Source: Coriobacteriales bacterium OH1046
GTDB lineage: Bacteria; Actinomycetota; Coriobacteriia; Coriobacteriales; Atopobiaceae
Assembly: GCA_004010535.1 (NCBI GenBank)
Contig: RQYE01000002.1
Coordinates: 1-64,000, forward strand
DNA length: 64,000 nucleotides
Reading direction: 5' to 3'
The translations under genes were made by a program, and so were the position numbers. The notes below the pieces were generated by a model. That model saw only the letters and a list, made by a program, of their open reading frames with translations. It did no database searches and was not told where the DNA came from. The first letter of the stretch is position 1; every line of letters starts with the position of its first letter. Shown here piece after piece: positions 607 to 48,846 of the stretch.

Positions 607-774
607 GCCGGCTCTAACGTGTGCTGGTGAAACGCGGTGGCTCGATGTACCAGGGATTGTGCGCGCACTTCTCCGGGAGAACCAGGTACCCGGCAGTCTT
701 GGGCGGGGGGCGCTACGATCGCCCGAGCCCGCTCGTAGTACACTATCGCGTATACGGAAGAGGAGGTGGGGCAC

Positions 775-1797
775 ATGGCATTCGATCCCAGGCGCGAGGA
801 TTACCAGCGCCTCGGCCTCCGTTTCGCGCGCGGTCTCGATAGCGGCGATCCTGCGGGGGCCATGCGCGCCTTCTCCACCTTCGGCCGCCGCTTCGCGCGC
901 ATGCGCGACACGCTGCCGCAATCCGATGCCGATCGCGCCTTCCATCTGGTGGCGGATGCGGCGGTCATCATCGATTACCAGCTTCCCTTCGTAACCGACG
1001 AGCAGGTCGAGCCGTTCGTCTCCCGTGCGGGGAAGCTGATCGACGAGGCGCTCTCCCTCGACGTGCTCTGCCATGATGCCGTGCGGATGCGTTTTGCAGG
1101 AGCGCATCCCAGTTTCGAGAACAGCTACGATTTCCTGCGCGAGGGTGCCCGCGCGGTGCTTGCCGCATGCCGCGAGCAGGCTGCGCGCGAAGCTGCCGAT
1201 GCATCCGCCGAGCGTGCACATCTGGCAGCCGAGATCGCCATGCGGCCCTACTACCGCTGGATGGCGAGCCTCGCCGAGAAGGCCCTCATCTGCGGCCGCA
1301 ATCGCGCCTGCATCCAACTCGCGCATGAGCTTCTCGAGCTCGATCCCGCAGACAGCGCAGATGTGCGCTTCACCTGCGCGCTCGCGTACGCCAAGCTCGA
1401 GGATGAACAGGGCCTCGATACCTTCGCAGCAAAGAATGCCCAGCTCGAGCGGGGTATCGGAGCGGAGGACGCATGGATGCTCCTTTCGCGCTGCGCGCTT
1501 GCTTTCAAGCGGCGCGACTTCGACGGCGCCCGGGTGCAGCTGCGCCGGATCACCGAGAATTACCCTCACGCCGTGCTCGACCTCATTGATCAGAAGGAGC
1601 TGCCCGAAGGCGTCTTCTCGCGCTTGGCCGTGGGCCCCGGCAGCGAGGATGAGCTCATGCTCGCAATCTCCGAGGCGACGGTGCTTCTGCTCGATGGCCG
1701 CTACCCCTTCGGCGCTTGGGTCGAGGAGGAGGCGCGCCGGCTCGCAACACCCCAAGACCTGCGCGAGCTCGCAGAATCTGAGGAAGAGCTGCGATGA
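775..1797 (+). CDS. Repeat-helix (TPR-like) protein, paralogue 1
   Basis: This 340-residue protein has no signal peptide or membrane segment and is rich in Ala, Glu, Leu and Arg helices. A segment around residues 185-260 (LELDPADSADVRF, then ALAYAKLEDE, then LSRCALAFKRRDFDGARVQL) has the spacing of tetratricopeptide-like helical hairpins. The same landmarks recur in the next gene, so the two are tandem paralogues. ATG 775 is chosen because AGGAGG lies 8 bases upstream; an in-frame GTG at 766 overlaps that ribosome site. The stop overlaps the next start (ATGA), so the pair is translationally coupled. Function is unknown; such proteins usually act as protein-protein scaffolds. Confidence 0.75.
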   Translation: MAFDPRREDYQRLGLRFARGLDSGDPAGAMRAFSTFGRRFARMRDTLPQSDADRAFHLVADAAVIIDYQLPFVTDEQVEPFVSRAGKLIDEALSLDVLCHDAVRMRFAGAHPSFENSYDFLREGARAVLAACREQAAREAADASAERAHLAAEIAMRPYYRWMASLAEKALICGRNRACIQLAHELLELDPADSADVRFTCALAYAKLEDEQGLDTFAAKNAQLERGIGAEDAWMLLSRCALAFKRRDFDGARVQLRRITENYPHAVLDLIDQKELPEGVFSRLAVGPGSEDELMLAISEATVLLLDGRYPFGAWVEEEARRLATPQDLRELAESEEELR

Positions 1798-2741
1798 GGG
1801 CGCGCGAGGAACTGGTCATGCGTTTGGCCGAGACCCGCCGCGCAACGCTCGGCGGCATATCGGACAGCGCTTTCGATGAGCTTAAGCGGGCGGTGCAAGA
1901 TGCCCCCGAGTCCTTCATCGACACCCCTGCCAACCAGGCGTTCTATCTGGTCTGCGTGGCGGTCGAGCGCTTCGAGAGGGACGGAGAGGGAGACGATGCG
2001 CTCGATGATGATGCGTACCTGCGGGCACGTCGGCTCCGCCACATGCGGATGGTCTCGGATTGCGATCAGATCCTTGCCATCGATCCCGCATGCACCGATG
2101 CGCATCTGCTCAAAGCGCTCGCCGAGAATGACAATGCGGAGGCCCTGCTCGGCATCCTCCTCGATATGGAGGATGCGATCGCGGCCGAGGGGGACGCATG
2201 GAGTGACGTGCTCCTGCGTCCGCAGCTGAGGGTTCGGGCGGCGGTGGTGCGTACCTGCATGGAGACCGCGCGGTACGGTATGGCGCTCGGAAAGGCGGCG
2301 GAGAGCCTTGCGCTCTCGCCCCTCGATACGCTCGGCTGCCGCCATTCCGCCGTGCTTGCATATGCCCGCCTCGAGGACGAGGCGGGCTTCGAGGCGCTCG
2401 ACGCCCGTTTCGATCATGCGAGCAGTGCTTGGTCGCTTCTCGCCCGCGTGATACTGAATTTCAAATTGGGCCGCATGAGCGCTGCCCGCCGCGCGCTCGC
2501 CGGCTATTCGGCGTTGGTCGAAGGGGGTGCCTACGCCCTGCTCAGGCCCATACTCGTCGACACCTACATGCCCGACCGGCCTGCCTGCGCGCCGTGCAGC
2601 TTCACCGAGGCTCTGTTCGCCGTGCACGAGGCCGATCCCATCGTGGTCGACGTGCCCGACTTCGCGCTGTGGGCGGAGGATCAGCCCGTTGTACGCGCCG
2701 CCGCGCGCTCCTATGCGGATGCGCACGGCTTCGATTGGTAA
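1794..2741 (+). CDS. Repeat-helix (TPR-like) protein, paralogue 2
   Basis: This 315-residue cytoplasmic protein starts inside the stop codon of the preceding gene (ATGA overlap). It shares with it the landmarks QILAIDPACTDAHLLKALAEND, LAYARLEDEAGFEALDARF and LLARVILNFKLGRMSAARRAL, and so arose by tandem duplication. The N-terminal third has diverged and is shorter. There are no catalytic motifs, cysteine clusters or membrane segments. The gene ends 12 bases from the convergent diguanylate cyclase gene. The role is unknown; a helical scaffold is the most that can be inferred. Confidence 0.75.
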   Translation: MRAREELVMRLAETRRATLGGISDSAFDELKRAVQDAPESFIDTPANQAFYLVCVAVERFERDGEGDDALDDDAYLRARRLRHMRMVSDCDQILAIDPACTDAHLLKALAENDNAEALLGILLDMEDAIAAEGDAWSDVLLRPQLRVRAAVVRTCMETARYGMALGKAAESLALSPLDTLGCRHSAVLAYARLEDEAGFEALDARFDHASSAWSLLARVILNFKLGRMSAARRALAGYSALVEGGAYALLRPILVDTYMPDRPACAPCSFTEALFAVHEADPIVVDVPDFALWAEDQPVVRAAARSYADAHGFDW

Positions 2742-2753
2742 CGGGCGGGGATC

Positions 2754-3917
2754 TCAATCACGCGCGGCGTGCCGTGCCGCCTTCTCCTCGTACATCGCTT
2801 CATCGGCCTGCCGCATGAGCTTCTCTATGCTATCGGTGCCATCGATGGTGCCGCTCGCCGTTCCCATCGAGAAGCTCAAAGGGTTGCCGTCCGCAATCAA
2901 CCCGTATCGTACAGCCCGGCGCTGCAGCACCTCCCGGCTGCAGCGGGCGCGCATGAGGGTGTCTTCCCGCTGGGAGGCGAGCGAGACGATGATGAACTCA
3001 TCGCCGTGCATGCGGTAGAGGGAGGCGGTGCCGTCGAACTCCATCTGGAGGATCGAGACGAGCAGCGAGAGGGCCCGGTTGCCCGCTTCGTGGCCGTAGA
3101 GGTCGTTGAAGAGCTTGAAGTCGTCGAGATCGAGCATGACGAGCGTGACCTCCTGACCCGCCAGCTGCCCCATGTCGCGGTGGAAAGCGCGCAGGTTGTC
3201 GAGTCCTGTCAGCGCGTCGCAATACGATTGGTCCATGAGACGCTCGTGTTGGGCGGCCTCGCGCATATGGCGGTAGTACTTGATGCAGCTCGAGATCGTG
3301 AGGATGAGCCAGAGCATCTGCAGGTTGATGGAGGTGCCGTGGCTCAGCGCTCCCGCTTGCTCGGCGGTGTCCATCATGTACGCGAACGAGCCGAGCAGCA
3401 GCGGGGCGAGGGCGACGGGCCTTATCACGAAGATGCATACGATGCTTATCGCTTGCGTCAGAAAGGCGTAGAGGCCGTTGCCGCGCTCGAGGTCGCCACC
3501 GGAGATGTAGATCCCGAAAGCGAGGGAGATGGCGATGAACTGCGCGATGACGATCTTTATGGGAAGCAGGGGCAGGCTCCGCCCATCCCGTTCCCCGCGC
3601 CTCGCGAGGAGGAAGGCGGCCACGAGGATAAGCGCGCTCAGCAGCTGGACGCAGTAAGCTATCCCGTGATGGATGATCCACTCCCAGCCTACCTTGGCGA
3701 TCACCTCGGGATTCTGGGACATGGCGAGGCTGTTCCTGATCATGAGGACCTCGAGGATGGCGGCGACCGATGCCAACGTCGTCCCATAGCGGAGGTTCGA
3801 GATGGTGATGGACCGGTCTATGTAAGGAGTGATCCTGTTGAGGCCCAGCAAGGTTGCCAAGATCTCATCGAACGGACGACTCTGCCGGGCGTTCGCATCC
3901 TCGGAGGTATGCTCCAC
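2754..3917 (-). CDS. Membrane diguanylate cyclase-like protein (GGDEF domain)
   Basis: A 387-residue protein with about five hydrophobic segments in residues 38-215, followed by a GGDEF domain (about 230-385) with the usual DALTGLDNLRAF entry, LDLDDFKLFND and YGHEAGN motifs. The active-site loop reads RMHGDEF (HGDEF at 304-308), so the first glycine of GGDEF is histidine; some cyclases tolerate changes at this position, so activity is uncertain. No RxxD inhibitory site is visible at the expected place just upstream. GGDEF proteins make cyclic di-GMP from two GTP. The gene is divergent from a c-di-GMP riboswitch and pilus operon, which suggests that it supplies the signal for that switch. Confidence 0.9.
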   Translation of the reverse strand: MEHTSEDANARQSRPFDEILATLLGLNRITPYIDRSITISNLRYGTTLASVAAILEVLMIRNSLAMSQNPEVIAKVGWEWIIHHGIAYCVQLLSALILVAAFLLARRGERDGRSLPLLPIKIVIAQFIAISLAFGIYISGGDLERGNGLYAFLTQAISIVCIFVIRPVALAPLLLGSFAYMMDTAEQAGALSHGTSINLQMLWLILTISSCIKYYRHMREAAQHERLMDQSYCDALTGLDNLRAFHRDMGQLAGQEVTLVMLDLDDFKLFNDLYGHEAGNRALSLLVSILQMEFDGTASLYRMHGDEFIIVSLASQREDTLMRARCSREVLQRRAVRYGLIADGNPLSFSMGTASGTIDGTDSIEKLMRQADEAMYEEKAARHAARD

Positions 3918-4231
3918 GGGAGGCGCCTCCTCTCTGTGCCGGGCCGCTGCCGGGAGTTTCCGCTGATACGCTCTCTGCCGTCTTGAGGCGATGGCATATC
4001 GACTTGATTATACTATGCAACGAGGGGCCTCGGGCATTTCCGGTACCTCTCCGCGCTCGTCCCGAGCTTGCCACGCCTGCCCTGAATCCGCGGTTAGGCG
4101 GGAGGGGCGTCAACGGTGGGAGCAGGGCCGCCGGCTGGCGCAGGACAGGGCGGCATATGCATGCGCACGAGAATACTATGCAGTTTTATAGTCCTGTGGG
4201 GACGATTTTATGACCGCACGGAGAGAATCCG

Positions 4232-4260
4232 TTGACGGTCTTCAAATAATGCTCTACACT
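4232..4260 (+). promoter_or_regulatory. Promoter of the riboswitch-pilus transcript
   Basis: TTGACG (4232-4237) and TACACT (4255-4260) are separated by exactly 17 bases, a good sigma-70-type promoter. Transcription would begin near 4267, just before the riboswitch aptamer. The prediction is by eye. Confidence 0.6.
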
Positions 4261-4275
4261 TCCCATTCGAAAAGA

Positions 4276-4353
4276 GAATAGCAGTATCCGGCAAACCCGC
4301 CGAAAGGCGGCGACGCAAAGCTACAGGGCCTTTACTGGCAGCCAGCTGCACCG
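4276..4353 (+). promoter_or_regulatory. Cyclic di-GMP-I (GEMM) riboswitch aptamer
   Basis: The conserved GEMM core is present: GGCAAACC, a hairpin CCGCC-GAAA-GGCGG (4297-4310) with the GNRA tetraloop, then GACGCAAAGCTACAGGGCC (4312-4330), and the closing GGCAGCCAGCTGC. The P1 helix can form between GCAG (4281-4284) and CTGC (4346-4349). GEMM-I RNAs bind cyclic di-GMP. The 3' strand of P1 lies in the 5' arm of the following terminator, so ligand binding should block termination and switch the pilus operon on. The direction of switching is inferred. Confidence 0.9.
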
Positions 4354-4384
4354 TTCCATGGAATGATGCAGCTGGCTGTTTTTT
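4339..4384 (+). terminator. Riboswitch-controlled intrinsic terminator
   Basis: A perfect 12-bp stem, CAGCCAGCTGCA (4339-4350) with TGCAGCTGGCTG (4367-4378), is followed by six T. The 5' arm overlaps the end of the c-di-GMP aptamer, so the two structures compete. Confidence 0.9.
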
Positions 4385-4464
4385 GTTGGACGGTCGGGTT
4401 CGGTCCCCGCAGGCTCGTGCGAGAAGGGCAGAGGATGTCAGGCTCCCATGCGGGGCCGGGAGAG

Positions 4465-7128
4465 ATGATGGAGAATGATATGATCTTGAAATTCAGCGCG
4501 GGGGGGCGCCATTCAATAGCTAGAAGGCTCTATGCCTTGCTGGCTCTTCTCCTGTTCATCATCGGGATCTGCCCGCCCCTCGCCGCATCTGCGGATGAGC
4601 CGGGCGTGTCCATCACCACCCCTCCGATCCACCGGAAACAGCTGGGCGACAACGGCGACGGCAGTTACGATCTTACGCTGACGGTCCGGGGCGAGACGGA
4701 CTCGGCGATTGCAGAGCAGCGTGCCAACGTGCTCGTCATCTTCGACAACTCCTCGAGCATGGAAACGTGGGTTCCTGTGTATGGGACGCGTTTGGCGGCC
4801 GCGAAGCATTCGGTCAACCAGCTCTCGTCGACCCTGCTCGGCCTCAACACCGCTGCGAACGCAGATATCGTCGAGATGGCCCTGCTGTCCTTCAACACCG
4901 GTACGACTCTCGAATGCGATTGGACCACCGATCTCGGCACATTCCAAGGCGCGACGAACGGGATGGGAACCGACCTCGGCACGAACTGGGAGCTCGCCTT
5001 GGATCAGGGAAAGCAGGTTGCCGATGCCAAGGCCGCCGATGGCGATCCCACCTACGTCATCTTCGTGACCGACGGCCTGCCCACCAAGGACAAGACCGGC
5101 AATTGGGTTGACAATGACGTTGGATATGCGCATTCCCTCGACGAGGCGAAGGCGATCGTGGATGCCGGTTACCACCTCTACTCGGTCTACATGTACGGGG
5201 GGCACAACTATCTGAACCAGCTCACGAACTACGCCTACACGGGCGACCCCAACGGGAACCCCGGCGGTACGTACTACTATCAGGCCTCCGATACGCCGGC
5301 CCTGCAGGCCGCGCTCGATCAGATCGCCGCCGTCATCACCAAGACCATCACGTACAAGGATGTCTCCGTCGACGACAGGCTCGACGCCGTGAATATGGAC
5401 TTCGCGGATATCGGGGCGGCCGGCACGCCGGAGTACGTCCTGACCAAGACGCGCGTATCCACCGGCGAGGAGATCGCCACCTACGATTCGGCGACCGGTA
5501 TGCTCACCGGTACATGGGACTACGAGCTTCCCACGTTCGACCTCGGCGACAAATCCCTGTCGTGGAGGCCCGAGGCGAACGCGGATACCGTGCTCGACAA
5601 CGATGTCACCTACTCCATAACCGTGAAGGTGAAGCCTACCCAAGCGGCCTACGACGCCATCGCCGACGGAACGGCACCGCTGCAATCCGGTGACAACGAC
5701 GGCGATGGGGTGGACGATGCCGAGGGCCTCTATTCCAACGACAACGACCATGCGACCATCACATTCAGCACGATCCTGACGGAGACCTCCTCCAGCGGCG
5801 GCACGACATCGACGGTGACCGGACCGCAGACATCCCCCTACAACAAACCCGTCGCCTCGCCTCCCACGTCCACCCTGACGCTCACCAAGCGCTGGGTTGG
5901 CGACGATCATGACCAAACCACGCCAAGCCGGCCGACCGAGCTCCACGGCACCGTCACGCGCGATGGCGGGACAGCCGATGAGAAGACCTACGACGTTACC
6001 CTGACGCCATCGGCAGGCGACCCGAACGTCTACACCACCACTTTGGAGGTTCCCGCCGGACCGACCGGGCATACCTACACGTTTGCCGAGGAGATGCTCC
6101 CCTCGTACTACACGGCCTCGGCGGTGACGGCAGCGACGTCGGGTGCCACGTCCTCGGCTTCCGGCGCTACGCTGACGCTCGCGGGCTTTTTGCCGCAGGC
6201 CGGCAGCTTCGAGATCGCCAATACCTATGCCGCATCCGGCTCGGTGGAGCTGTCCGCGACCAAGATCCTCAATGGGAGGGATCTCGAGGCCGATCAGTTC
6301 GAGTTCACACTTACCGGCGCGGATGACGGCGTATCGCAGGTCAAGAAGAACGCGGATGACGGCACGGTCGACTTCGATGCGATCACGTACACCGCGATAG
6401 GCACCTACCGGTACACCATCGTCGAATCGGAGGGTGGCGGCATCGGCTATGTGAATGATACGCATACCGAGAACATCACCGTCACGGTCACCGATAACGG
6501 CGACGGCACGTTGGAGGCGACTGCCGAGTATGATGCCGACGGCGCGACGTTCATCAACGAGTACGTGGCGGTTCCCGTCGCCGTCCTCAAGCAGAGCTCC
6601 GGAGACGGTACTCCCGCGCTGGGAGGAGCGCAGTTCACGCTCTACCTCGATGACGGCGACGGAGTCTTCGGCAACGGGGACGCTGTGGCGACAACCTACA
6701 GCGACGATGCCCTGACGACTGAGATCCCCGGGTCGGTGGTGACCACCGGTGCCGATGGCAAGGCGGCCTTCTATGGCCTGATCGCGGGCGAGACGTATTG
6801 GTTGAAGGAGACGCGTGCCCCCGTTGGCTATAACCTCGACGCCCAAGCCCATGCCATCGTCGTCGCTGCGGACGGGACCATCAGCACCCTTGACAGCGCC
6901 GGAACGAGTGCCGCGCTTCCGATTGCAGGTGGAATCGCAACCATAACGATCGCGGACGACCCGCTTCCGATCCTTCCGGGGACGGCAGGCGCCGGCATCG
7001 TCGGCATCCTCCTTGCGGGATCGACCTTAGTCCTCGGCGGAGGCACGGCAGCCCTCCATGTGCGGAGGCGCGGCGGACGCAGGAGCTTGGGAGGGTCTTA
7101 TAGCCCGCGCCACATGAAGCGCGAGTAG
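4465..7128 (+). CDS. Pilus tip/ancillary adhesin with vWA and CnaB-type domains, LPGTA cell-wall anchor
   Basis: A surface protein of about 887 residues. A signal peptide (RRLYALLALLLFIIGICPPLAASA) precedes a von Willebrand A domain with the MIDAS motif DNSSS (about 94-98) and TDGLPT. Next come a CnaB-like domain (LTLTKRWVGDDHD), a Spy0128/FctA-type isopeptide domain (SATKILNGRDLEADQFEFTL) and a SpaA-type prealbumin fold (GGAQFTLYLDDGDG, LKETRAPVGYN). The C-terminus has the sorting signal LPGTA (about 837-841), a hydrophobic stretch and a basic tail. This layout matches sortase-pilus tip adhesins. Start is uncertain: ATGs at 4435, 4465, 4468 and 4480 are all in frame, and 4480 has a good GGAGA at 4470. 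First gene of the riboswitch-controlled pilus operon. Confidence 0.9.
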   Translation: MMENDMILKFSAGGRHSIARRLYALLALLLFIIGICPPLAASADEPGVSITTPPIHRKQLGDNGDGSYDLTLTVRGETDSAIAEQRANVLVIFDNSSSMETWVPVYGTRLAAAKHSVNQLSSTLLGLNTAANADIVEMALLSFNTGTTLECDWTTDLGTFQGATNGMGTDLGTNWELALDQGKQVADAKAADGDPTYVIFVTDGLPTKDKTGNWVDNDVGYAHSLDEAKAIVDAGYHLYSVYMYGGHNYLNQLTNYAYTGDPNGNPGGTYYYQASDTPALQAALDQIAAVITKTITYKDVSVDDRLDAVNMDFADIGAAGTPEYVLTKTRVSTGEEIATYDSATGMLTGTWDYELPTFDLGDKSLSWRPEANADTVLDNDVTYSITVKVKPTQAAYDAIADGTAPLQSGDNDGDGVDDAEGLYSNDNDHATITFSTILTETSSSGGTTSTVTGPQTSPYNKPVASPPTSTLTLTKRWVGDDHDQTTPSRPTELHGTVTRDGGTADEKTYDVTLTPSAGDPNVYTTTLEVPAGPTGHTYTFAEEMLPSYYTASAVTAATSGATSSASGATLTLAGFLPQAGSFEIANTYAASGSVELSATKILNGRDLEADQFEFTLTGADDGVSQVKKNADDGTVDFDAITYTAIGTYRYTIVESEGGGIGYVNDTHTENITVTVTDNGDGTLEATAEYDADGATFINEYVAVPVAVLKQSSGDGTPALGGAQFTLYLDDGDGVFGNGDAVATTYSDDALTTEIPGSVVTTGADGKAAFYGLIAGETYWLKETRAPVGYNLDAQAHAIVVAADGTISTLDSAGTSAALPIAGGIATITIADDPLPILPGTAGAGIVGILLAGSTLVLGGGTAALHVRRRGGRRSLGGSYSPRHMKRE

Positions 7129-7265
7129 CCCCAAGGCCGCAAAGCCCGGGAATCCGGGCGTACCGATTCGGTGTTACCGCGACAACAGGCAGACAACTGC
7201 GCGCATGCTGTCGCAGAGCATAGTGAAGAGCAGTAGAGAGAGCAATCGATCGAAAGGAACGTACC

Positions 7266-8705
7266 ATGAGGAGAAATCTGAAAACGACCCTCCATAAGCT
7301 GGGCGCTGCATTCGCAGCCCTTGCCGTAGCGGTGTCTCTGGCACCCGCCGCGCTTGCGGCGCCGACCAGCGTGACGGATGTCGATGACAGCACGGTGACC
7401 ATCACCGGTCTGCTCGACGGCGATACGGTCAGCGCCTACCTGATCGCCGATGCGGATATCGACGACACGAACAACCTCACCTACACGATGGCCGGGAACC
7501 TTCCCGCCGCCTATGACACGATCGACGAGCTCGTCGCGGTCACGTCCGACGGCTACGCCTTCACGCAGGGCACTGATATGCAGAACGCCGCTGCAGCCAT
7601 CGCGAAGTCCCTGTCCGATGCCGGCGTGGCGGCGGCGACCACCGCTACCGCGAGCGGCACATCGGCCGAGCTCGCTCTTGGCAGCGGCTACTACCTGATC
7701 CGGGTTACGAGTACGAACGGCGAGACCCGCGTCTACCAGAACATGGTGGTCGATGTGAGCCCCAAGGCCAATGACGGCGGTACCTATGATCCGCATGACG
7801 ACGTGAGCGTTGAGGTCAAGAAGACCGATGTCACCGTGACAAAGACGGTCGGTGCCAACTACACCGAGTCCACCGATGAGTACTCCGTCGGAGACGAGGT
7901 TCCCTTCAAGGTCGAGACCGTCATCCCCAGCTACCCGGCTGACTCCACGAACGCCACCTTCATCATCGCCGACACGCCGTCGGCCGGCCTTGAGATCGTC
8001 GTGTCATCCATCCAGGTCAACGGCGTGGATGCAGCTAACGGCGCTGCGTACACGATCGTTGCTACCACGGGCGGCTACACCATCACCTACAGCAAGGACT
8101 ACATCCTCGCGCACCCCGGCGAGGCCGTTGCGGTGACCTACAACGCGAAGCTCACCTCCGCTGCATTCTCCCATGCCGCCGACGATGTGACCGGCAACAC
8201 CGCGACGGTCGAGTTCAACCCGAACCCCTATGAGAACACCACCGTCACGCCGGGTGATGACACCACCGTCCAGACCTACGGCTACGTATTCAAGAAGGTA
8301 GACGCCAACGGGGGCGACCTTGCCGGTGCGACCTTCACGATCACGCTCGATAACGGCGAGGTGCTTACCTCCACGTCCGGTTCGGACGGCTACATCTGGT
8401 TCGAGGACCTGGCCGCTGGTACCTATACCGCCACCGAGACCGTTGTTCCCGCTGGCCATCTGAAGGCTCCCGACCAGACCTTCACGCTGAGTGCCGCCAC
8501 GGCGACTGCGGACAACCCCGCGACCGCTGGCGTGACCGAGAACAACTACCTCGTCGCCACGGCCGATGTCGTCGACCCCGATCAGCCCACGCTGCCCACG
8601 ACCGGCGGTGCCGGCACCCTCATCATCACGGCGGTCGGCGTCGGCCTGCTTGCCGCCGGCGGCGTTGTGATCCTCCGTGCCCAGAAGAAGCAGCGCGAGC
8701 AGTAG
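7266..8705 (+). CDS. Major (backbone) pilin, LPTTG-anchored
   Basis: A 479-residue secreted shaft pilin. It has an Ala-rich signal peptide (cleavage likely after ALAA, about residue 32) and a pilin-motif-like lysine in VVDVSPK (Lys about 167), the residue a class C sortase would use to cross-link subunits. An isopeptide-forming middle domain (VTKTVGANYTESTDEYSVGDEVPFKVE), a SpaA-type domain (YVFKKVDANGGDLAGATFTI) and the sorting signal LPTTG (443-447) with hydrophobic segment and KKQREQ tail follow. GAAAGGA precedes the start. It lies 137 bases after the tip adhesin and before two sortases. Its high Thr and low Cys content is typical of pilins. Confidence 0.93.
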   Translation: MRRNLKTTLHKLGAAFAALAVAVSLAPAALAAPTSVTDVDDSTVTITGLLDGDTVSAYLIADADIDDTNNLTYTMAGNLPAAYDTIDELVAVTSDGYAFTQGTDMQNAAAAIAKSLSDAGVAAATTATASGTSAELALGSGYYLIRVTSTNGETRVYQNMVVDVSPKANDGGTYDPHDDVSVEVKKTDVTVTKTVGANYTESTDEYSVGDEVPFKVETVIPSYPADSTNATFIIADTPSAGLEIVVSSIQVNGVDAANGAAYTIVATTGGYTITYSKDYILAHPGEAVAVTYNAKLTSAAFSHAADDVTGNTATVEFNPNPYENTTVTPGDDTTVQTYGYVFKKVDANGGDLAGATFTITLDNGEVLTSTSGSDGYIWFEDLAAGTYTATETVVPAGHLKAPDQTFTLSAATATADNPATAGVTENNYLVATADVVDPDQPTLPTTGGAGTLIITAVGVGLLAAGGVVILRAQKKQREQ

Positions 8706-8782
8706 GAGCAGGATCCTCGATCCCATTCAGGCTTCTCATGGGTAGGGAACTGACACGTGTCTCCCGAGCAGGAGGGCAGCAT

Positions 8783-9691
8783 ATGCGCCCTCCTGCTCCC
8801 CTGCGGCGCGGGCAAGGCGCGCTGCGCTACCGCATCCAGATGGTGATCGCGCTCGCCGTCTGCCTTGCCGGCATCCTTTTGATCAGCTATCCGTTCGTGA
8901 GCAACCTCCTCAACCAGATCGCGCAGGACAAGATCAGCGATAACCAGATAGCGGCGGTCGGCGTCCTGAACGAGGAGGATCTGTCCGCCGAGAGAACAGC
9001 GGCTCTCGACTACAACGAGCGCCTCCTCGACGGGAGCGTCAAGGTGGTCGACCCGTTCGATGAGAACGACAGCGCTCCCGGCAACGACGAGTACGAGGCC
9101 GTCCTGAATGTCGTCGGCGACGGCGTGATGGGCCGTCTGGCCATCCCCTCCATCGCTGTAGACCTGCCCATATACCATTACACGACCGAAGATGTGCTCG
9201 CCCATGGCGTCGGCCATCTGCCGGAGACCTCCCTGCCGATAGGAGGCGCGCCCGCGCATTGCGTCCTCGCCGGGCATACGGGCCTGCCGACTGCGGAGAT
9301 ATTCAACCGGCTCGACGAGATCGAGGTCGGCGACTGGTTCGTCATCCAAGTGCTCGGCGAGGACCATGCGTACCGTGTGACCGCGATCGAGACTGTTCTG
9401 CCCGAGCAGGTCGAGAGCCTTGCCGTCGATCCCGGACGCGATCTCGTCACGCTCGTCACCTGCACCCCCTACGGGGTGAACACGCACCGCCTGCTCGTGC
9501 ATGCCGAGCGCTGCGACGTTCCGCCCGAGTGGTCTGATGGCAGCGGTCCGGTCGTCCGGTCGGTGGAGACCATCATCCCCGAGGGGCCGCCCCTGTGGCT
9601 CTACTCGCTTGCAGGCGCTGCCATCGCCGTGGCGATCGCCATCGTGGTCCTCATCGTTATCAGGCGGAGGAGGCGGCGCCGTGAGGATTAG
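8783..9691 (+). CDS. Class C (pilus) sortase 1
   Basis: A 302-residue membrane transpeptidase. It has an N-terminal membrane segment (about 18-38), the sortase beta-barrel with catalytic His in AGHTGLP (His about 165) and Cys in TLVTCTPYG (Cys about 227) followed by an Arg (THRLLVH), then a second C-terminal membrane segment and an RRRRRR-rich tail. Two membrane segments and the TLxTC-TPYG signature fit class C pilus-polymerising sortases. ATG 8783 is preferred because GCAGGAGGG lies just upstream; an ATG at 8738 lacks this. It overlaps the second sortase by 11 bases. It probably polymerises the LPTTG pilin. Confidence 0.92.
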   Translation: MRPPAPLRRGQGALRYRIQMVIALAVCLAGILLISYPFVSNLLNQIAQDKISDNQIAAVGVLNEEDLSAERTAALDYNERLLDGSVKVVDPFDENDSAPGNDEYEAVLNVVGDGVMGRLAIPSIAVDLPIYHYTTEDVLAHGVGHLPETSLPIGGAPAHCVLAGHTGLPTAEIFNRLDEIEVGDWFVIQVLGEDHAYRVTAIETVLPEQVESLAVDPGRDLVTLVTCTPYGVNTHRLLVHAERCDVPPEWSDGSGPVVRSVETIIPEGPPLWLYSLAGAAIAVAIAIVVLIVIRRRRRRRED

Positions 9692-10649
9692 GCGCGTCTC
9701 GGCGGGTTCCATCATAGGCACCCTCATGTTCTTGGCGGGAGCCTTCATCTTCCTTCTGCCCGGATTCGACGTCCTGCGCCTTCAGCGGGGGTACGACCGG
9801 GAGCTGGAGAGCTTTCTCGGTAGGGACAGTCTCACGCTGCGGGAGGATGCGGAGCCCAGTGCTGCGGAAACGATGCCCGATGACGATGCCTATCGCTTCC
9901 TCCTCTCCTACAACGAGCACGTTATCGGCGGGACCGCCGGGGCCGTGAACGACCCTTGGGGGCTCGGCAGCGACACGGATGCCCTCGAGAGTGTGGGCAT
10001 CCGTGATGCAGTGGTGGGCGTGCTGCGTGTGGAGCGCCTCAATCTCGAGGTGCCGATATTCCTCGGCGCATCATACGATCATATGGAACGCGGATGCGCC
10101 ATCATCTCGGGGACGTCTGCCCCGCTCGGACAGCCTACCTCGAACGTCGTGATAGCGGGGCATCGGGGGACGCTCTTCAGGGATATCGAGGACATCCAGC
10201 CGGGGGATACGCTCACCATCGAGACCAGATGGGAGACGTTGTCGTATCGGGCCGTGGAATCGCGCATCATCTCGCCGAACGATGCCGAGGCGATCGCGAT
10301 ACAGAACGGTCACGATATCGTCACCGTCCTCACCTGCCACCCCTATGGGTACAGCCTTCAGCGCTACCTGGTGTTCTTCGAACGGGTCCAGCCAGGCTCG
10401 GCGGGCGGGACGGGGGAGTTGGATGGCGGCGGGTTCGACAGCTTGGCTCCTTTCAGTCCGGTCAGGGCGATTTCCGAGGCTCTCGCCCCCTGCGATTCGA
10501 TCCAGCTGCGCGCCGAGCGCTGGTTGAGAGTGGCGGGGTTTGCCCTGCTCGTTCTCATTCCGACGCTACGCCTCCTGACGGCGTGCCGGCCCCGTCGGCA
10601 TAAGAGGGTGGCTGCGCATAGCGCGGAACGGAGAAGGCAGTCGGGCTGA
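9681..10649 (+). CDS. Class C (pilus) sortase 2
   Basis: A 322-residue sortase starting at GTG 9681 within the end of sortase 1; GGAGGAGG at 9666-9673 is the ribosome site. It has an N-terminal membrane segment, the catalytic His in AGHRGTLF (His about 161), Cys in TVLTCHPYGYS (Cys about 219) and Arg in LQRYLVFFER, then a C-terminal hydrophobic segment (WLRVAGFALLVLIPTLRLL) and a basic tail. It is clearly diverged from sortase 1. Two sortases with two substrates carrying different anchors (LPGTA and LPTTG) suggest some division of labour, but which enzyme serves which substrate cannot be read from sequence. Confidence 0.92.
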   Translation: MRIRRVSAGSIIGTLMFLAGAFIFLLPGFDVLRLQRGYDRELESFLGRDSLTLREDAEPSAAETMPDDDAYRFLLSYNEHVIGGTAGAVNDPWGLGSDTDALESVGIRDAVVGVLRVERLNLEVPIFLGASYDHMERGCAIISGTSAPLGQPTSNVVIAGHRGTLFRDIEDIQPGDTLTIETRWETLSYRAVESRIISPNDAEAIAIQNGHDIVTVLTCHPYGYSLQRYLVFFERVQPGSAGGTGELDGGGFDSLAPFSPVRAISEALAPCDSIQLRAERWLRVAGFALLVLIPTLRLLTACRPRRHKRVAAHSAERRRQSG

Positions 10650-48483: not shown

Positions 48484-48846
48484 GGGGGCGACTGGTTTCG
48501 ACAGGGTGTGTTCGAGACGGGCAGCAGGCCGTGGTCTCCTCGCCACGTTAAACAGGGGTACCGTCAAACGAATTGACGACAACACCTATCAGGGCTATGC
48601 CCTCGCTGCTTAAGTAACTAGCAGCCGCTGATCTGGGGATCTTCTCCTGTTCCCAAGGAAGCGTCATTCAGGGAGATGCACTGCGCGGACGTGGCGGGTA
48701 TGCCGCGCAGCCAAGATCGAACCGGCTAGGGTGTGCGGAGTTGGTCGCTTGGCACCGAACACCCGAACCTTCCCAAGCGACTGAGCCTGGAGACACCTAT
48801 CGGGAATGCGCTTTGGACCGGAGTTCGATTCTCCGCGCCTCCACCA
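48484..48846 (+). ncRNA. ssrA: Transfer-messenger RNA (tmRNA)
   Basis: It begins GGGGGCGACTGGTTTCGACAG and ends with the tRNA-like TTCGATTCTCCGCGCCTCCACCA; GGGGGCG pairs with CGCCTCC. The internal reading frame ends ...DDNTYQGYALAA and TAA at 48611-48613, so the likely tag is VKRIDDNTYQGYALAA with resume codon GTC. It rescues stalled ribosomes with SmpB and marks the product for proteolysis. A terminator follows directly. Confidence 0.97.

Follow-up and report, generated by a model that had tools for sequence, protein, structure and literature searches.

The window, by which we mean the whole stretch of 64,000 nucleotides analyzed here (Coriobacteriales bacterium OH1046, contig RQYE01000002.1, positions 1 to 64,000), carries near its start a gene for a predicted diguanylate cyclase, a divergently oriented leader with a c-di-GMP-I (GEMM-I) aptamer, and an operon of two pilin and two sortase genes (4480-10649). 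The features of this region are as follows.

766-1797, forward strand: open reading frame, working label 'tpr1', 84-89% identical in protein sequence to homologs on contigs C114 and C39 of the sister species (genome G001), a conserved neighbor of the cyclase gene there
1794-2741, forward strand: open reading frame, working label 'tpr2', 82% identical to its homolog on G001 C39, convergent with the cyclase gene
2754-3917, reverse strand: predicted membrane diguanylate cyclase (PF00990, E = 1.4e-27), divergent from the riboswitch
4232-4260, forward strand: sigma-70-like promoter, TTGACG-17-TACACT, from a motif scan, its spacing recurring at two sites
4280-4353, forward strand: c-di-GMP-I (GEMM-I) aptamer (RF01051, 51.9 bits)
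4280-4285, forward strand: 5' strand of P1, from covariation, partner 4350-4355, with one A-C mismatch in the window copy
4319-4347, forward strand: P3 hairpin, from the Rfam alignment, with a 3' strand (4337-4347) also used by the terminator
4339-4386, forward strand: intrinsic terminator, a 12-bp stem (4339-4350/4367-4378) plus T run
4480-7128, forward strand: large pilin, predicted tip or ancillary subunit (VWA, DUF7604, FctA isopeptide domain, SpaA; TIGR03786)
7266-8705, forward strand: predicted backbone pilin (RrgB_K2N_iso_D2, SpaA, LPTTG anchor)
8738-9691, forward strand: class C (pilus) sortase (NF033745, 249 bits, cut-off 160)
9687-10649, forward strand: second sortase (PF04203, E = 1.2e-20; NF033745, 127.7 bits)

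The downstream genes are those of a sortase-pilus operon, with isopeptide-domain pilins, a cell-wall anchor and a class C sortase, as the original prediction had held, although the span given there was too short and the operon in fact runs to 10649. The second sortase has class C as its best match, yet scores below the NF033745 cut-off of 160. The list of open reading frames places the start of the first pilin at 4363, within the terminator; the in-frame ATG codons at 4465, 4468 and 4480 are more plausible, which puts the likely start codon about 100 nucleotides past the terminator. From their domains, the products of the operon would be expected to assemble a pilus and to serve in attachment. 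No direct repeats of at least 10 bases flank the pilus segment, and we therefore claim no mobile-element mechanism for it.

A search of the window with cmscan, using the Rfam GEMM model as the original prediction had proposed, gave a match to RF01051 at 4280-4353 on the forward strand that covers the complete model (positions 1-87) and scores 51.9 bits against a gathering score of 35 (E = 3e-7, for the window as scope). A canonical GEMM-I aptamer thus does lie between the promoter and the pilus genes. The contact bases G20, A47 and C92 (Vc2 numbering) are, by what we take to be their equivalents, G4290, A4317 and C4349, read directly from the window; this is the G/A/C set of the c-di-GMP type and, with the covariance-model match, suggests an RNA that would bind c-di-GMP. 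As a point against this, the linker before G20 (4287-4289) reads TCC rather than the AAa of the RF01051 model, while the overall score passes; an A-rich linker is common in the RF01051 consensus and is not known to be a strict requirement. The predicted promoter, with TTGACG starting at 4232 and TACACT ending at 4260, is the sole sigma-70-like site within 3600-4700, a match that is weak if taken alone (shuffled sequences yield 0.4 such sites). As read by eye, the spacing between the -35 and -10 elements is the same at the two most similar sites, one on contig C6 of the same genome and the other on contig C31 of G001.

The terminator is as had been described: CAGCCAGCTGCA (4339-4350) is perfectly complementary to TGCAGCTGGCTG (4367-4378), six T residues follow, and the stem score has a p of about 0.003, the lowest value that 300 shuffles allow. 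Its overlap with the aptamer is of a different kind, however, from the one originally described, in which 4346-4349 formed the 3' strand of P1. The Rfam alignment places 4344-4347 at the base of P3, and an alignment of 13 c-di-GMP-I sites from the GTDB family shows that both partners vary at every one of the six pairs of a P1 formed by 4280-4285 and 4350-4355, only 56% of whose cells are paired. In the same alignment, covariation is present in P1 and P2, and pairing is found in 91-100% of the cells of P2 and P3 (98.5-100% in the P3 helices). For the earlier P1 (4281-4284/4346-4349) the fraction of paired cells is 52%, no different from its shuffles, and its covariation does not exceed that of the control; its pairing slides, and it clashes with P3. 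Thus the 5' arm of the terminator takes up the 3' strand of P3, the equivalent of C92 and the first base of P1. This correction leaves the prediction of an ON switch standing, because on the aptamer side it is mainly P3 that competes with the terminator; since the terminator takes its arm from P3 itself, aptamer and terminator are mutually exclusive.

A terminator overlapping the 3' strand of the aptamer was found at nine of the 13 sites (seven at p of about 0.003 and two near 0.03, with 300 shuffles) and was not significant by the shuffle test at the other four (G001 C114, G046, G047 and G120). Covariation in the terminator stem proved uninformative as evidence, since the 5' arm, being part of the aptamer, is almost invariant. 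The folding comparison that had also been proposed gave -48.4 kcal/mol for the leader with the terminator enforced and -21.0 kcal/mol with the aptamer enforced. When the growing leader was folded without ligand, the terminator won only after 4374-4378 had been transcribed, a late appearance that fits what a co-transcriptional switch requires; the full leader without ligand folds to the terminator. The covariance model, the conserved expression platform and the content of the operon support the view that the leader is a c-di-GMP-I ON switch for the sortase-pilus operon, its function and direction being predicted from sequence.

Four of the 13 sites precede sortase-pilus operons (the window, G001 C31, G047 and G120) and another four precede Cna_B adhesin genes (contig C6 of the same genome, G001 C114, Olsenella uli L019 and O. 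phocaeensis L022); the remaining sites lie before genes for a GGDEF-EAL protein, a sugar transferase and a lipoprotein-like product and before others whose role is not clear. The site before the GGDEF-EAL gene is in G046 (L023:10996-11071), and in an order-level genome (G280, L049) we observed a c-di-GMP-I site upstream of a GGDEF-PAS gene.

The second riboswitch of the genome, on the 5.7-kb contig C6, lies before a collagen-adhesin-like gene with six Cna_B domains. In G001 the order is riboswitch, adhesin, the sequence found at the end of C6, the sequence found at the start of the window, and the homolog of 766-1797. From this gene order, C6 probably joins the start of the window, and its riboswitch probably sits just upstream. 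Positions 1-148 of the window are identical to the end of C6, and the two contigs diverge beyond; these common 148 bases may reflect a repeat or a branching of the assembly. By eye, C6 (L014) also carries an AbiEi-like gene upstream of its riboswitch, at about 4.9-5.6 kb, with an AbiEii-like partner that is possibly broken.

The gene at 2754-3917, on the reverse strand, likely encodes a diguanylate cyclase, an activity predicted from its GGDEF domain (96.9 bits against a Pfam cut-off of 23.8). Its start codon agrees with that of the G001 homolog, and in the predicted structure the GGDEF domain is preceded by about six helices (low-to-moderate confidence; pLDDT 73, pTM 0.46). Pfam searches of the assembly, which is 98.6% complete, found no GGDEF gene in the genome besides this single match and returned no EAL, PilZ or HD_5 (HD-GYP) match. 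No Pfam family was assigned to the products of 766-1797 or 1794-2741. The original prediction of a link between riboswitch and pilus is supported, but it missed this sole, divergent GGDEF gene, which we consider the more interesting part of the locus.

A profile of the cyclase subfamily, built from four homologs and searched against 140 genomes of the family, scored 674-682 bits in four of them (G000, G001, G040 and G048) and no higher than 152 bits in the rest. G040 is probably O. uli and G048 is O. phocaeensis, both Atopobiaceae; such relatives in the same family support the actinobacterial host that had been proposed. Each of the four carriers has one GGDEF match in a Pfam scan (G001 has, outside that count, a weak second protein match that is interrupted by stops), and EAL is absent from all four. 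All four also have a c-di-GMP-I riboswitch, as against eight of the 140 genomes overall, a co-occurrence with a Fisher probability of 4.6e-6, uncorrected for relatedness. A scan of named genomes with the cyclase alignment matched only three loci. In O. phocaeensis one riboswitch is divergently oriented to the cyclase gene, and another is found 5.5 kb beyond it. In O. uli a degenerate c-di-GMP-I-like copy (L018:5047-5166) lies between the cyclase gene and a Cna_B adhesin gene; it scores 32 bits with R1, an RNAalifold consensus model that recovered only 14 pairs yet detects this copy, whereas Rfam does not report it at E up to 1. The divergent arrangement of cyclase and riboswitch thus recurs in O. 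phocaeensis and also in O. uli, where the riboswitch is degenerate.

The aptamer, the terminator overlap, the gene content, the uniqueness of the GGDEF gene and the co-occurrence with the riboswitch, all computed here, point to a self-contained circuit for surface adhesins that consists of one synthase and RNA receptors, a reading to which we assign a probability of about 0.7. The membrane cyclase would sense some signal and make c-di-GMP, which would bind the nascent leader (4280-4353) and stabilize P3 and P1. The stabilized aptamer would keep 4339-4350 out of the terminator stem, and RNA polymerase would continue into the pilin and sortase genes; without ligand the terminator would form and the pilus would be off. 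The Cna_B collagen-adhesin-like protein would be controlled by another riboswitch built in the same way, which synteny places just upstream of the window. More tentatively, and with somewhat less than even odds in our judgment, the system may be complete and minimal, with one cyclase, no recognizable phosphodiesterase or protein receptor, and the riboswitches of adhesion genes as its only receptors, cyclase and riboswitches being gathered at one locus and co-inherited in some Atopobiaceae.

An ordinary c-di-GMP ON switch might instead respond to a cell-wide pool, the neighboring cyclase being no dedicated partner and owing its position to shared ancestry or hitch-hiking. In G001 the cyclase gene is followed directly by a tRNA gene, the pilus segment (4.0-10.56 kb of the window) is missing there, and a riboswitch-pilus operon with its own riboswitch sits on another contig, C31, away from the cyclase; the presence of the segment at this locus therefore varies, and this weakens the case for a strict coupling. 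In addition, four riboswitch-positive genomes of the family lack this cyclase subfamily, and the four genomes positive for both are related to each other. Against this, no other GGDEF gene is available to supply the pool in the four carriers, and the cyclase is therefore its source by elimination, whatever its location. We consider a non-dedicated cyclase unlikely.

Somewhat less probable still is a cyclase that lacks activity or whose product is a different dinucleotide, for example 3',3'-cGAMP, in which case the circuit would have decayed or would use another ligand. The signature reads HGDEF, and N replaces the conserved D of GHxxGD, both in the window and in G001, the N also being found in O. 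uli; the RxxD inhibitory motif is absent from the window cyclase. The first position of the GG(D/E)EF signature tolerates substitutions. An A at the G20 position, which shifts the preference of GEMM-I RNAs toward 3',3'-cGAMP, is present in the aptamers at O. uli L019:8020-8093 and G120 L024:11781-11854 (for G120 the scan of the family gave no GGDEF match). The window aptamer, however, keeps G20, the O. phocaeensis homolog has D at the GHxxGD site and reads GGDEY, and the 65%-identical G001 homolog is likewise intact and shows nothing to suggest decay of the gene. Moreover, HGDEF introduced into VCA0965 supports c-di-GMP synthesis (PMC3974145). Finally, an OFF switch or translational control in place of ligand-dependent antitermination is very improbable: folding without ligand cannot settle the direction, as the free leader goes to the terminator anyway, but the direct exclusion of the terminator by P3 at nine of 13 sites, the lack of any recognizable separate antiterminator in the leader and the distance of the likely start codon all argue against it.

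Networks of c-di-GMP usually hold many synthases, hydrolases and receptors, so that cause and effect are hard to assign. If the self-contained circuit is as we propose, the whole network may consist of one cyclase gene and two riboswitches, deleting a single gene would test it, and the locus would be an unusually simple system for studying control of attachment by c-di-GMP. It would also extend control by c-di-GMP riboswitches to sortase-built pili in Actinomycetota, and the homologous loci in O. uli and O. phocaeensis are in named species in which the idea is testable. We know of no riboswitch on a sortase-pilus operon, and our searches of open-access papers turned up none; nor did searches on c-di-GMP or riboswitches in Olsenella, Coriobacteriia or Eggerthellaceae give anything on point. 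In Bacillus and Clostridioides, single sortase-anchored adhesins are already known to be under ON control; the novelty here lies in the pilus target, the phylum and the single-cyclase locus.

The closest parallels are riboswitches in Bacillus and Clostridioides and a known type of pilus. The Bc2 RNA of Bacillus thuringiensis, upstream of the collagen adhesion protein gene cap, is a c-di-GMP-I ON switch that acts by antitermination (PMC4933901). Like the window leader it precedes a surface adhesion gene, its target being a cell-wall-anchored collagen adhesin, but this is a single gene in a Firmicute and not a pilin-sortase operon. In Clostridioides difficile the sortase-dependent surface proteins CD630_28310 and CD630_32460 are raised by c-di-GMP via riboswitches (PMC6200980), a likeness to the window; unlike it, CD630_28310 has a class II riboswitch (Cdi-2-3), riboswitches are many per genome, and the pili controlled by c-di-GMP are type IV rather than sortase-built. 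The predicted pilus itself resembles the SpaH/EbpB type of sortase-assembled pili in Gram-positive bacteria (NF033902, NF033745) in combining isopeptide-domain pilins, an LPXTG anchor and a class C sortase in one operon, but the major pilin of the window, at 85.3 bits, falls under the NF033902 cut-off of 95. Elsewhere in the window, a tmRNA gene was found at 48484-48846 (146 bits).
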